Shown piece by piece: positions 2,609 through 8,185 of a stretch of 33,244 nt of DNA (positions are counted from its first letter, which is position 1; every line of letters begins with the position of its first letter). The stretch covers positions 1-33,244 of the forward strand of contig JAHOYU010000052.1 of the NCBI GenBank assembly GCA_019038625.1. The letters run 5' to 3'. Made by a program: the position numbers and the translations under genes. The notes under the pieces were generated by a model, which saw nothing but the letters and a program-made list of their open reading frames with translations, was not told the DNA's origin and did not search any database. Origin of the DNA: Candidatus Latescibacterota bacterium. Its GTDB lineage: Bacteria > Krumholzibacteriota > Krumholzibacteriia > Krumholzibacteriales > Krumholzibacteriaceae.

Positions 2609-2952
2609 ACTCTGTACCTTTCTAGAAGTTTACTGGTATATCCGAATGGAAAACCTTCATTCATATGACGATAACAGGGTTCTTGCTGCTTAGAAAACCC
2701 CCGCGAAGCCTACCCCAATGACCCTCCGGGGTCAAGTGGATTTTTGTTATCTCTTATAATTTACTCTTTAACAGTATTCTGCGCAAGCGACTAAGCGACA
2801 GATTTTCACCATAAATCAGGCAGAAACCACAAAAATATCATTCTCACATGGATTCTGACTTAGATATTGTATTGTCAGGTTATCATTTACGCATTCGTAC
2901 TCAACAGGGGGAGATCACAGGACGAATCGTGTCAAAAACCGGTAATAAAAAA
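2609..2952. other. intergenic region between por operon and tRNA-Arg
   Basis: About 340 bp without a convincing gene on either strand. It holds the likely minus-strand promoter of the por operon (2707-2735), a roughly 90-nt leader to porG, a T-run directly after the tRNA-Arg 3' end on the minus strand (rc of 2947-2952) that could serve to terminate the tRNA transcript, and a short tandem repeat AAGCGACT/AAGCGACA near 2789-2805. A weaker alternative minus-strand promoter (TTGCGC, 17 bp, TAAATT) lies further upstream. Confidence 0.5.
2707..2735 (-). promoter_or_regulatory. predicted sigma70-type promoter of the por operon
   Basis: On the minus strand, TTGACC (rc of 2730-2735), a 17-bp spacer and TAGGCT (rc of 2707-2712). 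The -35 and spacing match the other promoters seen in this window; the -10 is weaker. Transcription would start near 2700 and give a leader of about 90 nt before porG. Confidence 0.45.
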
Positions 2953-3026
2953 TACGCCCAGGAGGACTCGAACCCCCAACCTTCTAGTCCGTAGCCAGAC
3001 GCTCTATCCAATTGAGCTATGGGCGC
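2953..3026 (-). tRNA. tRNA-Arg (anticodon ACG)
   Basis: A full cloverleaf reads on the minus strand: 7-bp acceptor stem GCGCCCA/TGGGCGT (one G-U), D-arm GCTC/GAGC, anticodon stem TCTGG/CTAGA with loop CTACGGA (anticodon ACG, reads CGU/CGC after A34 deamination), and a T-arm with the TTCGAGT loop. The discriminator A is followed at once by a T-run, so the 3' CCA is not encoded, unlike the two serine tRNAs further along. A strong promoter lies 45 nt upstream. Confidence 0.96.
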
Positions 3027-3070
3027 ATAATGCCGTGGAACCTTGCTTTATCAAGTCCAGACAACACCAC

Positions 3071-3129: not shown

Positions 3130-3792
3130 CTACTGAGCGGAAATGCTCCCGTCAGAGACGACGAGGCTTGATTCTGTGGCGGATTCCAGAAAACTCCTGT
3201 CGTGAGACACGACGATCATAGCCTGGGTCAATCCGGCCAGTATTTCGACTATCCTCTCTGACGACCGGGGGTCGAGTCCTGAGAGTGGTTCATCCAGAAG
3301 AAGGACCTCCGGCTTCATAGCCAGAACGGTCGCAAGTGATACGAGCCGCTTTTCACCACCTGAGAGATGATGAGTTATCCTGTCGCCGAAACCATCGAGT
3401 CCGAGCAGACGCAGTGTCGACGTCGAGATCTCGAGAGCCTCCTCCCTGGTGTATCCCTGATTCAATGGACCAAAAGCTGTATCCTCAAGCACCGTAGGGC
3501 AGAAAAGCTGGTCATCCGGATCCTGAAAAAGCAGACCCGCATGTCCCCTGACTTCCCTGAAATCCTTCTCTTCCTCACGGAGTTTTCCGAATACCTCCAC
3601 AACACCGGAACCGGGCTTGAGCAGCCCCATGATAATATGCAGGACGGTAGTCTTGCCAGAACCGACATGGCCGCGCAGTCCTATCCTCTGACCTTCGAAC
3701 AGATCGAGTGAAGCACCGGAGAGTACGGATCGTCCACCTTCATGCGAAAAATGGATATCTCTCAGGCTCACCAGCCTTTTGTTACCAGTCAT
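3130..3792 (-). CDS. nikO: Nickel/cobalt ECF transporter ATP-binding protein (CbiO/NikO family)
   Basis: 220 aa from the ATG at 3792. Walker A GHVGSGKT (41-48), Q-loop Q90, signature LSGGEKR (143-149), Walker B VLLLDEP (163-169) and switch SHD (196-198) are all intact. It is the cytoplasmic ATPase of an energy-coupling-factor importer and should drive uptake through NikQ and NikM. A longer frame opens at a TTG at 3837, but the ATG at 3792 follows a GGAGG and fits the usual family start (four or five residues before the first beta strand), so I prefer it. It lies last in the operon, 70 nt after nikQ. Metal specificity is inferred from the NikR gene and operator of the same operon. Confidence 0.92.
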   Translation of the reverse strand: MTGNKRLVSLRDIHFSHEGGRSVLSGASLDLFEGQRIGLRGHVGSGKTTVLHIIMGLLKPGSGVVEVFGKLREEEKDFREVRGHAGLLFQDPDDQLFCPTVLEDTAFGPLNQGYTREEALEISTSTLRLLGLDGFGDRITHHLSGGEKRLVSLATVLAMKPEVLLLDEPLSGLDPRSSERIVEILAGLTQAMIVVSHDRSFLESATESSLVVSDGSISAQ

Positions 3793-3862
3793 CGGATCGT
3801 CACCCTCCTGCCTGATGACAAATTCGTCATCATCCAACCACTCGGCGACTTCATGATTAACA

Positions 3863-4630
3863 CTACCATAATCTTCCCCGGTTCGTGTATACAGCGACAG
3901 ACAATATCACAAGGGCTAATGACGTGATAAGCAGGAATATCGCGTCCCTCTTTTCAAATCGGAAATGACTCACTACATGAAATTCTCCATCATATCCCCT
4001 GCACTTCATCGCCTCCATCACACGTTCCGATCTCTCAAGGCTCCGAACGATAAGCATTCCGGTCAGATACGCATAACTCCTGTAAGTGTGTATCCTCATC
4101 GAGGGAACAAACCCTCTCGTCTTCATAGCCCGTATCAGAGCCATATATTCGTGATGAAGTACATCAATATACCTTAGGGTAAACAAGAACAGGTGAGTTA
4201 GTTTTTCAGGGACCTTGAGATGATGGAACGCGTGCCCCAGTACAAAAGGATCGACCGTACCCATGAGCGCGGCAAAGACAAGAACGATCGCGTTCGCTTT
4301 CAGGGTGACGATCACGCTCCATATGAGGCCCTCATAGCTGTACGAAAGAGCTCCCACCGCGAACAGGGGTTCTCCCGGAAAGGTCAGTGGTACGAGGACA
4401 AACAACAATAACATGAAAATGTTCAATCTCAGGAGTCTCTTCAGCAGGGCATCTGAAGATATCCTCGCCAGAATCACCAGAAAAGCCCCCGAGATCAACC
4501 CGGCGATAAGGACGCCAGAATGCGATGTAAGAGCAACGAGTACCGAAAACGCTAACGTCGCGACCACCTTGGGGCGAGGATCCAGCCTGTGAATAAATGT
4601 ATCGCCGGTGTAGTAAGTCGCGCAGCTCAT
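3863..4630 (-). CDS. nikQ: Nickel/cobalt ECF transporter transmembrane protein (CbiQ/NikQ, EcfT family)
   Basis: 255 aa with about five or six hydrophobic segments. The N-terminal 'HRLDPRPKVVATLAFSV' matches the conserved opening of EcfT/CbiQ proteins, and the coupling helices that dock to the ATPases show as 'ALIRAMKTRGF' (about 162-172) and 'RVMEAMKCRGYDG' (about 198-210), both carrying the family A-x-x-x-R-G pattern. It is the inner-membrane scaffold joining the substrate-binding NikM to the NikO ATPase. The ATG at 4630 follows an AGAGGTG ribosome-binding site. It lies between nikM and nikO in the same orientation. Confidence 0.93.
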   Translation of the reverse strand: MSCATYYTGDTFIHRLDPRPKVVATLAFSVLVALTSHSGVLIAGLISGAFLVILARISSDALLKRLLRLNIFMLLLFVLVPLTFPGEPLFAVGALSYSYEGLIWSVIVTLKANAIVLVFAALMGTVDPFVLGHAFHHLKVPEKLTHLFLFTLRYIDVLHHEYMALIRAMKTRGFVPSMRIHTYRSYAYLTGMLIVRSLERSERVMEAMKCRGYDGEFHVVSHFRFEKRDAIFLLITSLALVILSVAVYTNRGRLW

Positions 4631-4658: not shown

Positions 4659-5294
4659 TCATATCTTTCCACCTTTTGACCTTGCAGCCGGCAGATCGAA
4701 TACCGACGGATAGACCTTCGACAGAAAGGCTACGACAAAACCTGTGAATATTCCTTCTGCAATTGCTACGACGATGTTAGGAATAAGCGCGATACCGACT
4801 ATCGTACCCATCTGCTTGCCACAGAAAATCAATGCGGTCGCCCACAGTACAAACGAAGCAAGGTAGGCCGTGACTCCGGCCATCATCCCCCAGAAGAAAA
4901 CCGACTTTCCCGTACCTGCCTTCCTGATCCGGCCATTATAAAGATAATAGACCAGGACTGCCGGCACTCCCATCACTACCGTGTTTATTCCCAGAGTCGT
5001 TATCCCCCCGAACTGGAAAAGCAGGGCCTGAAGAAAGAGTGATACAAGAAATGCAGGCATCGCGGCCCAACCAAGGAAAAGGCCTGCCAGTCCTCCCAGA
5101 AGAGGATGTACCGATGATGGACCTATCGGAAGCCGGATCACAAGAGTCGAAACGAACAGAACTGATGCCGTCAACGCGGCTCTCGGGATCTGTTCATCCC
5201 TCAAGACACGCAGTCCGGCTGCGATGCATGGAACGGCGATCGCGGCTCCGGCCAGAGCTACCCCGATCGGTGCTACTCCCTCTGATATATGCAT
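4659..5294 (-). CDS. nikM: Nickel ECF transporter substrate-binding membrane protein (CbiM/NikM family)
   Basis: 211 aa, about six membrane segments. It begins Met-His-Ile-Ser-Glu-Gly, the invariant family start. In the solved NikM structure the metal is held in a square plane by the free N-terminal amine, the His2 backbone and side chain, and an internal histidine. The matching internal residue here is H63 in 'GPSSVHPLLGG'. Because the N-terminus is part of the metal site, the ATG at 5294 must be the start; it has a GGGAG site 6 nt upstream. No fused or adjacent CbiN is seen; the next gene upstream instead encodes NikL, the accessory part typical of nickel-type systems. Confidence 0.94.
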   Translation of the reverse strand: MHISEGVAPIGVALAGAAIAVPCIAAGLRVLRDEQIPRAALTASVLFVSTLVIRLPIGPSSVHPLLGGLAGLFLGWAAMPAFLVSLFLQALLFQFGGITTLGINTVVMGVPAVLVYYLYNGRIRKAGTGKSVFFWGMMAGVTAYLASFVLWATALIFCGKQMGTIVGIALIPNIVVAIAEGIFTGFVVAFLSKVYPSVFDLPAARSKGGKI

Positions 5295-5311: not shown

Positions 5312-5755
5312 TCAGTGCTTTCGCCTGAATATAGAGTACAGCCCGAATATCCCGAATATAATACTTACTCCTGTCACGACCTGAAGAGTACGGTCCCGCC
5401 TTACGAAAGACTGGTCACCAGTGACCCCTCCCCGGCCGATCTCCATCTCCAACACCGCCAGATGGCCCATCCCGTCATCAACCTCTATTTTCCATTTACC
5501 TTCAGCTCGGGCTACAAGAGAAAACCTTCCATCCTCCGAGGTCGTACCGGTCACAAATACCGAATCCGGACTGCCCGGCCTGAAAACGGACACATCACAA
5601 TAGGCCATTGGGCTTCCATCATCATATGAAGCTTCTATCATGAGACCGTTCTCTACCAACCGGCATTCCGCCCCATGAGCCGTCACGGTCCGTGGATTCA
5701 CCATTACTGCCAGAAACATCAAAGACAGGGCTACCATCCGCCAGCCGTTCATCAT
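5312..5755 (-). CDS. nikL: NikL-type periplasmic/membrane accessory protein of nickel ECF transporter
   Basis: 147 aa. A signal peptide (about 1-26) ends in VTA, so the mature protein would start His-Gly-Ala-Glu-Cys. A small beta-rich carboxypeptidase-regulatory-like domain follows, and a single C-terminal membrane helix (about 127-143) ends in RRKH. This layout matches NikL (also annotated CbiL), an accessory component found with NikMQO in place of CbiN. The start ATG overlaps the nikK stop (ATGA), with a GGGAGG ribosome-binding site. The domain probably lies in the periplasm, tethered beside NikM. The name rests on architecture and position, not on a search. Confidence 0.8.
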   Translation of the reverse strand: MMNGWRMVALSLMFLAVMVNPRTVTAHGAECRLVENGLMIEASYDDGSPMAYCDVSVFRPGSPDSVFVTGTTSEDGRFSLVARAEGKWKIEVDDGMGHLAVLEMEIGRGGVTGDQSFVRRDRTLQVVTGVSIIFGIFGLYSIFRRKH

Positions 5756-6420
5756 TTACCTCCCGGCCTTCCGACCTGGAACACCAGTGAACAACCTCGT
5801 CTTCCAACCGAAGCTGTCACAAGATATTTCCCCGACTTTCCTGTCATTATCCGTACTGGTTCCTCCGTATCTGCTCTGTAATGAGCTGTCCGTCCTTCTG
5901 CGGGAATGACGGTGATCTCGCATTCGACAGGGCTTCCATCCAGCATGACCTGGACCGGAAGGTCTCTACCAGGCACCGTGTCGGAAACCGGAGCGAAGGG
6001 AACGATCTCCAGACCGACTCCCGCCTGGTACCGACCAGGATCATCCTCGCCACTTCCCGCCACCATAAATGTCTTCAACTCGTACAGGGGGTCTTCCATC
6101 CCGGGACGCTTCATCACCAGCCGGAAAATATGCAGCCCCGGCGAGTCAAGGACCACGGTAGCAGTATGTCGTTTATCCCCTTTTCTGGTCGACAGCTCTC
6201 TCGCACCGTCAGGACCTGTCACCTGGATCTTTCCGAGCACCTTCTCCTTGACCGCAAAACTCGATTCAGGGTAATAATGTCCGCCGCAGATATCCAGATT
6301 TATCTCTACAGCAACCTGAGGATAAAGATCCTCCGCCTCAAACCAGTGTTCGTGGCTCGTAACTGAAACAGGCACTGCGATTGACGCCAGCAATACGGCG
6401 ACACATATGAATACTTTCAT
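5752..6420 (-). CDS. nikK: DUF4198-family periplasmic protein, NikK-like
   Basis: 222 aa from the ATG at 6420, which follows AGGA at good spacing; a GTG 12 nt further up (6432) is possible but less likely. The signal peptide ends VTS (about residue 22), giving a mature start of His-Glu-His-Trp, the typical 'HEHWF' opening of DUF4198 proteins. A free N-terminal H-x-H is a potential ATCUN-like nickel or copper site. The rest is beta-rich, with a central domain ('KIQVTGPDG', 'GLHIFRLVMKRPGM') and a C-terminal 'GKYLVTASVGRRG' strand pattern. NikK proteins accompany NikL in nickel ECF systems; the precise job is unknown but it is likely a periplasmic nickel-handling protein. Confidence 0.8.
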   Translation of the reverse strand: MKVFICVAVLLASIAVPVSVTSHEHWFEAEDLYPQVAVEINLDICGGHYYPESSFAVKEKVLGKIQVTGPDGARELSTRKGDKRHTATVVLDSPGLHIFRLVMKRPGMEDPLYELKTFMVAGSGEDDPGRYQAGVGLEIVPFAPVSDTVPGRDLPVQVMLDGSPVECEITVIPAEGRTAHYRADTEEPVRIMTGKSGKYLVTASVGRRGCSLVFQVGRPGGK

Positions 6421-6441
6421 TTTATTCCTCACCTGATGATC

Positions 6442-7221
6442 CTAGAACCTGCACATCAATGTGACGTTGCCCCGGATGATATCCGCTCCTCCACCCTTAC
6501 CGATCTCGATACCGGTCTTGAGCGTCATACTCTGCGATCCCACCGGCATGTAGACACCAGGCAGGACGGACCAGTTGTCCGAAGCCTCATCGAATGATCC
6601 CAGCAACTCGATACCGGCCGCTACTCCATGAGAATCACTGGAAAGCGGAGTCTTTCCTCCGATAGCCCAGAAGGTAGCACCCTCGTCTCCTTCACGCTCA
6701 TGACAGATATTAATAGTGACATTCGCGTGGTTCTCGAAATCCTTCGTCGCGATAAGCATTCCCGAATAGGCAAAGTCTTCGCTGCCGAGAAGGTCTTTCG
6801 CCCTCTGAAAAGGCACCTCGAATCCGGCAGCCACCGCGATGTTCACAGGCCAGTCCTCAGTCACCCTGTACTGCAGGCATCCAGCGACAGCCTCCATGAA
6901 GGGAGAAGGTCCCAGAGGTTCAAAGCCTGAGTCTTCTGCGAGATGCCCGACACCGAACTTCGCAAAATGGGTATGTACATCGAACATCAGCCTGTTCGTT
7001 ATCCCCCAGGACATCCCCGGAGTCATTTCCCAATGATCCAGCTCAGGGATCTCGGAATCGTCGACCATGTAATCATAATGCAGATGAAATACGAACTCCC
7101 CTTTTCTCGCCGTCGAATAACTCTCCATCTCTATATATTCCATCGCGTGATGAGCAGAAAGTCCTCCAGGTATATTAAGCAACCCCACTAACACTACGAT
7201 CGATATGATAAACTTTTTCAT
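6442..7221 (-). CDS. Outer-membrane beta-barrel-type protein in the nickel operon (candidate nickel porin/transport component)
   Basis: 259 aa. A signal peptide (about 1-23) ends LSA, after which the mature chain opens His-His-Ala-Met-Glu-Tyr and continues with 'HLHYDYMV' and 'FDVHTHFAKFG', so the N-terminal third is rich in His, Met and acidic residues. Alternating amphipathic strands and a final residue Phe (LMCRF) suggest export to the outer membrane and recognition by the Bam machinery. It resembles the small 'transporter/MetA-pathway' barrel proteins in style, but I do not recognise a named family. It is the second gene of the nickel operon, after nikR and before nikK, with an AGGGGG ribosome-binding site. 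I infer passage or capture of nickel at the outer membrane. No TonB box is visible. Confidence 0.7.
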   Translation of the reverse strand: MKKFIISIVVLVGLLNIPGGLSAHHAMEYIEMESYSTARKGEFVFHLHYDYMVDDSEIPELDHWEMTPGMSWGITNRLMFDVHTHFAKFGVGHLAEDSGFEPLGPSPFMEAVAGCLQYRVTEDWPVNIAVAAGFEVPFQRAKDLLGSEDFAYSGMLIATKDFENHANVTINICHEREGDEGATFWAIGGKTPLSSDSHGVAAGIELLGSFDEASDNWSVLPGVYMPVGSQSMTLKTGIEIGKGGGADIIRGNVTLMCRF

Positions 7222-7301: not shown

Positions 7302-7715
7302 TTATATTCCCTGCCCCGTTGTGGCCGCGGCCAGTGAACAGTATTTTACTCCCTTTGTCGCCTTGAGCCTGTTTGCCAGTTCCCCCACTTTCTCAGGCTT
7401 TCCCCTGACAACGACGATCTCCAGACAATTGTCATGATCGAGATGCACATGCTGCGAGGAGATTATCAGATGATGGTAATCATGCTGAGTGTGAGTGAGC
7501 TTGTTCGAAAGGTTTCTTCTGTGATGGTCATATACCATCACTATCGCGGCGGCTACTTCCTTCCCGCTCTTCCAGTCATCCTTTACCAGATCATCCCTGA
7601 TCAGATCCGCTACAGCCTTGGATCTGGTGGGGTACCCGGTCTTCTCGATCCGCCTGTCGAATTTCGAAAGAAGTTTTTCGTCTATCGACACACTGAACCT
7701 GATCAATCCCGACAT
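7302..7715 (-). CDS. nikR: Nickel-responsive transcriptional regulator NikR
   Basis: 137 aa, normal length. The ribbon-helix-helix DNA-binding part covers about 1-50 ('LIRFSVSIDEKLLSKFD', 'GYPTRSKAVADLIRD') and the ACT-like metal-binding domain the rest. The four high-affinity nickel ligands of E. coli NikR (H76, H87, H89, C95) correspond to H78, H89, H91 and C97 here, all conserved in 'TQHDYHH' and 'HVHLDHDNC'. It is the first gene of the nickel operon, with an AAGGAGG ribosome-binding site. A palindromic operator overlaps its own promoter at 7768-7794, so it should repress itself and the uptake genes when nickel is sufficient. Confidence 0.97.
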   Translation of the reverse strand: MSGLIRFSVSIDEKLLSKFDRRIEKTGYPTRSKAVADLIRDDLVKDDWKSGKEVAAAIVMVYDHHRRNLSNKLTHTQHDYHHLIISSQHVHLDHDNCLEIVVVRGKPEKVGELANRLKATKGVKYCSLAAATTGQGI

Positions 7716-7767: not shown

Positions 7768-7794
7768 GTATTACATATTTTACATTCGTAACAC
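7768..7794 (-). promoter_or_regulatory. NikR operator
   Basis: On the plus strand this reads GTATTAC, 13 bp, GTAACAC. It matches the GTGTTAC-N13/14-GTAACAC signal described for NikR of deltaproteobacteria and related groups, with one change in one half. The symmetry extends outward to TTCGTATTAC and GTAACACGAA. It starts 1 bp downstream of the -10 element of the nikR promoter, covering the start of transcription, as expected for a repressor site. It lies about 53 bp before the nikR start codon. Confidence 0.88.
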
Positions 7795-7990: not shown

Positions 7991-8084
<94 letters not shown>

Positions 8085-8098
8085 GCATATATCTATTG

Positions 8099-8185
8099 TG
8101 GCGGAGGGCGAGGGACTCGAACCCCCAAGGGCTTGCGCCCGGCGAATTTCAAATCCGCTGCCTTACCAATTAGGACTAGCCCTCC
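8099..8185 (-). tRNA. tRNA-Ser (anticodon UGA)
   Basis: Minus strand. Acceptor stem GGAGGGC/GCCCTCC, a three-pair D-stem (GTC/GGC with one U-G), anticodon stem GCGGA/TTCGC with loop TTTGAAA (anticodon TGA), variable arm GGGC-GCAA-GCCC, T-arm with TTCGAGT, discriminator G and an encoded CCA. It decodes UCA and other UCN codons. Acceptor plus T-arm is 7+5 bp, as for ordinary serine tRNA, not the longer helix of tRNA-Sec. Confidence 0.95.

Follow-up and report, generated by a model that had tools for sequence, protein, structure and literature searches.

What does an unnamed exported protein do between the repressor gene nikR and nikK in a nickel ECF operon? Passage of nickel across the outer membrane has been established only for a few TonB-dependent receptors (listed in PMC11247825). 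An earlier note on the 33,244 nucleotides analyzed here (referred to as the window) had pointed to a signal-bearing, strand-rich protein of 259 aa between nikR and nikK that ends in Phe; the open reading frame was confirmed, and AlphaFold2 predicts 12 antiparallel strands for its product, referred to below as the barrel protein (Table 1). The reading frame cannot be attributed to chance, since homologues are present in 35 genomes. The earlier note had missed that the mature N-terminus is His-His and that a NikR operator matching the consensus at 13/14 positions precedes nikR.

Table 1. Features of the nickel operon and its surroundings; positions refer to the window.
Feature	Position	Strand	Description and evidence
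Two tRNA-Ser genes	7993-8185	-	anticodons gct and tga; upstream of the nikR operator
NikR operator	7768..7794	-	GTGTTAC-N13-GTAATAC; 13/14 to GTGTTAC-N13/14-GTAACAC
nikR	7302..7715	-	nickel-responsive repressor; PF08753 111.5 bits; NCBIfam PRK04460.1
Barrel gene	6442-7221	-	ATG start, 259 aa, last residue Phe; predicted exported 12-stranded outer-membrane beta-barrel
Predicted Sec signal peptide	7153..7221	-	residues 1-23, ...GGLSA/HH; residue -1 small and conserved; in all homologues, conservation sets in sharply at HH
Mature N-terminus His-His-Ala-Met-Glu-Tyr	7135..7152	-	candidate N-terminal histidine metal site
Mature H23-H62, strands 1-3	6967..7086	-	putative lumen-facing H23, H25, D27, H40, E42, D58, H60, H62; alignment and face analysis
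nikK (DUF4198)	5752..6432	-	exported, mature N-terminus HEHWF; PF10670 56.1 bits
nikL	5312..5755	-	exported, membrane-anchored, mature N-terminus HGAEC; NCBIfam NF058648 E 2.8e-13, below curated cut-off
nikM	4659..5294	-	CbiM-family S component, N-terminus MHI; PF01891 156 bits
nikQ	3863..4630	-	T component; PF02361 115 bits
nikO	3130..3837	-	ATPase; PF00005 89 bits
tRNA-Arg	2952-3027		

The operon runs on the minus strand in the order nikR, barrel, nikK, nikL, nikM, nikQ and nikO, with gaps of 80, 9, -4, 17, 28, and 25 bp from nikR-barrel to nikQ-nikO. NikR, NikK (DUF4198), CbiM and CbiQ exceeded their Pfam cut-offs, and the genes following the barrel belong to a NikKLMQO nickel ECF transporter, with PF10670, PF01891, PF02361, and PF00005 over cut-off and NikL (NF058648) below. 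The barrel gene is single-copy in its own genome. The same genome encodes four TonB-dependent receptors, none of them located in the nik operon, which could serve as an alternative nickel route. In the barrel protein, the predicted signal peptide is followed by HHAMEYIEMESY. Searches of Pfam, NCBIfam and PADLOC with this protein gave no match, PDB sequences yielded chance-level matches only, a profile of 21 homologues found no match among PDB sequences, and no relative occurred in the viral contigs and plasmids searched. The C-terminal Phe is invariant among the aligned homologues; such a terminus is expected for BAM substrates.

The AlphaFold2 model of the window protein, based on 21 window and locus sequences, reached a pLDDT of 87.8 and a pTM of 0.82 with 12 antiparallel strands, only residues 1-9, which include the His-His end, being poorly placed; a second model queried with a 51% identical homologue (L024) showed the same 12-strand architecture (pLDDT 87.5, pTM 0.83). 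For both models, Foldseek returned FapF, the COG4313 channel, KdgM-type porins and VhGalP as nearest solved folds at TM-scores of about 0.6-0.7. The former claim of a small outer-membrane barrel is borne out by structure prediction, which confidently gives a 12-stranded barrel of the outer-membrane type and no soluble fold, and the idea of the earlier note largely holds. FapF (5o65/5o68), the COG4313 channel (4rl8), KdgM (4fqe), and VhGalP (8xua) thus share the predicted fold, but sequence identities are 9-15% and none of them is a metal protein, whereas the neighbors of the barrel are nickel genes.

More specific assignments were considered and rejected. For Phenol_MetA_deg/COG4313 (PF13557), the window protein gave no match, two of 21 members matched weakly and below the curated cut-off (best E 0.035), and TM-scores to 4rl8 were 0.60-0.63. 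FapF reaches a TM-score of about 0.7, but is characterized by the fap amyloid operon and an N-terminal coiled-coil, whereas the barrel has nik neighbors and a pre-barrel tail of ~19 residues. A TonB-dependent receptor would have about 700 aa and 22 strands, carry an N-terminal plug and match PF00593/PF07715, which does not agree with a mature length of 236 aa, 12 predicted strands and no Pfam match. The weaker Foldseek matches include Pla, OMPLA and LpxR, which, with the conserved Asp and His residues within a small barrel, could hint at an outer-membrane enzyme resembling omptins, OMPLA or LpxR, with a catalytic His/Asp cluster. However, TM-scores to Pla are poor (0.26-0.31), no solved or Pfam enzyme family matched by sequence, and the linkage to nickel genes is strict; we regard an enzyme as extremely improbable.

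Hints at the substrate come from the N-terminus and the putative lumen. In every copy reaching the N-terminus, HHA[M/L]E directly follows the predicted cleavage site (A or G at -1), and His is accordingly predicted to be the first residue after signal cleavage. AHHAMEY had been used as a pattern in the genome scan, and circularity was therefore considered; it was dismissed, as 10/10 profile-found homologues also start with HHA[M/L]E. Invariant in the alignment are the mature residues H1, H2, E5, D27, D39, E42, D58, H60, H62, and E112. Furthermore, a near-invariant His/Asp/Glu wall (Table 1) is predicted to line the lumen, with alternating residues of strands 1-3 placing it on one face. When faces were assigned by hydropathy and strand parity, the putative lumen face showed a lower entropy than the lipid face (0.92 vs. 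1.48 bits, p = 1e-4) and hence stronger conservation. Judged from the sequence, the His-His start and the lumen wall point to metal handling. In most loci, a His is also found at or next to the mature start of NikK (HEHW/HDYW...), NikL (HG...) and NikM (MHI), which suggests that histidine sites at N-termini follow one another across the envelope. For a DUF4198 protein, i.e., of the NikK family, the N-terminal His was described to bind Ni2+ with a Kd of 18 nM, and the genome neighbors of this protein include NikR and TonB receptors (PMC12537917).

Conserved basic residues (K167, K212, R96, and R227) were also found on the putative lumen face, beside the acidic wall. These would suit a channel that takes nickel as a small organic chelate, e.g., Ni-histidine or a metallophore fragment, in place of free Ni2+, with NikK stripping the metal in the periplasm. 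In line with such a role, channels that conduct small organic acids and sugars are among the fold neighbors (COG4313, KdgM and VhGalP), and the IsDUF4198 crystal contained Ni2+ together with chelating malonate (PMC12537917). However, no metallophore synthesis gene was recognized in the operons examined, whose flanking genes are partly annotated, and we consider a chelate as the actual substrate unlikely.

A scan of 84,980 species genomes yielded 22 relatives of the barrel, and whole-phylum profile searches raised the total to 35 genomes from about ten phyla, nearly all of them metagenome-assembled. Hosts include Krumholzibacteriota, Kiritimatiellae, Verrucomicrobia, Lentisphaerae, Aminicenantes, Neomarinimicrobiota, WOR-3, and Hydrothermota as well as MAGs labeled Eisenbacteria, Clostridia and Deltaproteobacteria. 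In the phylum of G096, a Deltaproteobacteria-labeled MAG, the barrel is essentially missing (1/345). A small-clade effect as the source of the nickel linkage was rejected based on this spread across phyla, and one weak match (L005 in G067) was discarded as spurious, lying in an unrelated reading frame. Within the 21-sequence set, homologues are 48-89% identical to the window protein; a same-genus relative labeled Candidatus Krumholzibacteriia (L002), with nik proteins identical to those of L006, places the window in a Krumholzibacteriota-type genome. Averaged over 21 operons, the barrel is the most conserved protein with a mean identity of 52%, followed by NikR (45%), NikO (43%), NikM (39%), NikL and NikQ (34% each), and NikK (28%). 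Such a top rank is unusual for an outer-membrane protein.

In all 33 genomes in which the downstream gene is readable, it is a nickel gene, namely nikK in 32 cases and a convergent nikR in the remaining one (L021). Upstream, nikR immediately precedes the barrel in 20 genomes; in loci lacking nikR, the nickel genes begin with the barrel. Shorter versions of the operon keep barrel-nikK-nikL (L053, L078) or a local barrel-nikK pair only (L011, L018), in L018 additionally with nikR. The pair at L011:7766-8470, without nikLMQO nearby, suggests that the barrel and NikK either make up the core of the system or cooperate with a permease encoded elsewhere. Within its own phylum, four genomes have both the barrel and a strong NikK, none the barrel alone, one NikK alone and 73 neither (Fisher p = 3.5e-6), which corresponds to a barrel in 4/5 genomes with a strong NikK and in 0/73 others. 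Moreover, barrel and NikK co-evolve with r = 0.76.

This constant partnership with nikK, even without adjacent nikLMQO (L011, L018), would also be expected if the barrel were an outer-membrane anchor or nickel buffer and no conduit, its periplasmic His-His tail docking or loading NikK while nickel enters via general porins. A precedent exists in Caulobacter, where the N-terminal domain of PcoB stabilizes the periplasmic PcoA (PMC12509749). However, strong conservation extends beyond the tail into the predicted barrel (D27, E42, D58, H60, and H62), and to a purely anchoring role we attach rather little credence.

The survey of gene neighborhoods agreed with the expected tie to nickel genes: close homologues sit with them in every readable case, and one distant relative lies apart. 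The latter (L084 in G971, 5845-6561, minus strand; profile E 2e-7) starts with AHHGKDF (mature HHGKDF) and has no nickel genes around; it possibly represents a sister family whose barrels also begin with His-His but serve a different metal. Given this location of L084, a restriction to nickel may not hold for the superfamily as a whole. In a Deltaproteobacteria-labeled genome (L025:4432-7522), genes for ExbB, ExbD and TonB are located directly upstream of a barrel copy; this copy was not accepted as a TonB-linked barrel, as the gene runs into a 100-N gap that renders its downstream neighbors unreadable. A natural comparison of operons with and without the barrel is offered by a relative from the same family (G008; L064, C26:20500-33000), in which nikR and nikKLMQO occupy the same genomic position but no barrel gene lies between nikR and nikK, which are only about 22 bp apart; a 13/14 NikR site is kept. 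Because this genome retains nikR-nikKLMQO, the barrel is an accessory component. G008 has no NiFe-hydrogenase family match, whereas four barrel-bearing relatives do, although the family model can catch related complex I subunits; this paired absence in one genome at 90% completeness is only suggestive.

Control by NikR was assessed by scoring operator sites out of 14 positions against the delta-proteobacterial consensus, given as GTGTTAC-N13/14-GTAACAC in PMC545781. The window operator, 79 bp before nikR, is the only site of at least 12/14 in 33 kb. Sites of 12-14/14 were found 44-100 bp upstream in six of the 12 units starting with the barrel gene (0-0.5% in shuffles), three being perfect (L017, L020, and L057, at 14/14 directly before the barrel) and three scoring 12/14 (L053, L056, and L078), while 7/19 nikR-first units have an operator of at least 12/14. 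NikR control is consequently strong for some units and unproven for others, as the remaining units are without a recognizable site. The co-regulation put forward in the earlier note is supported by operators upstream of nikR-barrel units and, in other genomes, directly before the barrel gene itself. The regulation also bears on a role in nickel efflux or resistance, in which the barrel would let out excess periplasmic metal as proposed for PcoB and copper; an efflux function has been advocated for barrels of the PcoB type (PMC12509749). However, the operon encodes an importer, no efflux pump genes were recognized in it, and, lying behind NikR operators, this importer operon should be off at high nickel. 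We consider efflux very unlikely.

We favor, as a fairly likely reading, that the barrel is a TonB-independent outer-membrane nickel channel or receptor dedicated to NikKLMQO and feeding NikK, for which we infer nickel binding, the direction of transport and the hand-over to NikK. When nickel is scarce, NikR would leave its operator and the barrel would be produced along with NikK, immediately ahead of it. Ni2+, free or in a small complex, would enter the lumen, where the His/Asp/Glu wall on strands 1-3 could provide selection, and the flexible periplasmic His-His N-terminus would hold the ion and pass it, presumably in this order, to NikK. NikK, whose own N-terminal His corresponds to a nickel site in a characterized relative, would thereby receive the metal, before NikL/NikM and the ATP-driven ECF module (NikQ/NikO) would draw it into the cytoplasm. 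TonB energy would not be needed in a channel of this kind, because high-affinity periplasmic capture would keep the gradient inward. More tentatively, and rather doubtful at present, the operon could constitute a full relay that moves nickel through both membranes independently of TonB, with a His at or beside the N-terminus of every component that is exported or faces the surface (HH in the barrel, H in NikK and in NikL, and MH in NikM). No other outer-membrane barrel is known to gather metal from its own lumen with a cleaved N-terminal His-His and to pass it along, as this one would then do.

With its NikR control, its lack of a Pfam or NCBIfam model and its tie to NikK in about ten phyla, the barrel represents a testable candidate for a second outer-membrane nickel route, and it is probably the missing outer-membrane door for nickel in many little-studied phyla. 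For loci without a linked TonB receptor, it further hints at how NikK is supplied. Curators gain a well-delimited new family together with a hypothesis on its function; the openly licensed papers searched contain no description of it.

In comparison with known systems, the locus shares the operon core, NikR control and NikK plus NikL as extra exported components with the NikKLMQO nickel ECF transporters (PMC545781, PMC2667541), but differs in the barrel gene preceding nikK; the searched passages of these two comparative surveys mention no outer-membrane component. A DUF4198/NikK system with a TonB receptor (PMC12537917) likewise places an N-terminal-histidine nickel protein beside an outer-membrane protein and NikR, the neighbor there being a TonB receptor in contrast to the predicted plugless 12-stranded His-His barrel found here. 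In its proposed mode of action, the barrel is most like PcoB/CopB of the E. coli Pco system, a small TonB-independent 12-stranded copper barrel with an electronegative, metal-lined pore (PMC9210255), although it belongs to a different family by sequence: none of 21 members matched PF05275 at E-values up to 1. In both, the exported N-terminal tail contains His and Met, the operon encodes periplasmic partners that bind metal, and the barrel has 12 strands, here by prediction; the acidic metal lumen of PcoB may have its counterpart in the conserved His/Asp/Glu residues on the putative lumen face of the predicted barrel. They differ in the genetic context, a nickel operon with NikR instead of a copper two-component system, and in the tail: a short one with a strict HHA[M/L]E motif here, a long one with little conservation in PcoB. 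A small non-TonB metal barrel is not new in principle, PcoB being the precedent with copper (PMC9210255). The barrel would extend this idea from copper to nickel, and the new family would give a known transport system a new outer-membrane part.
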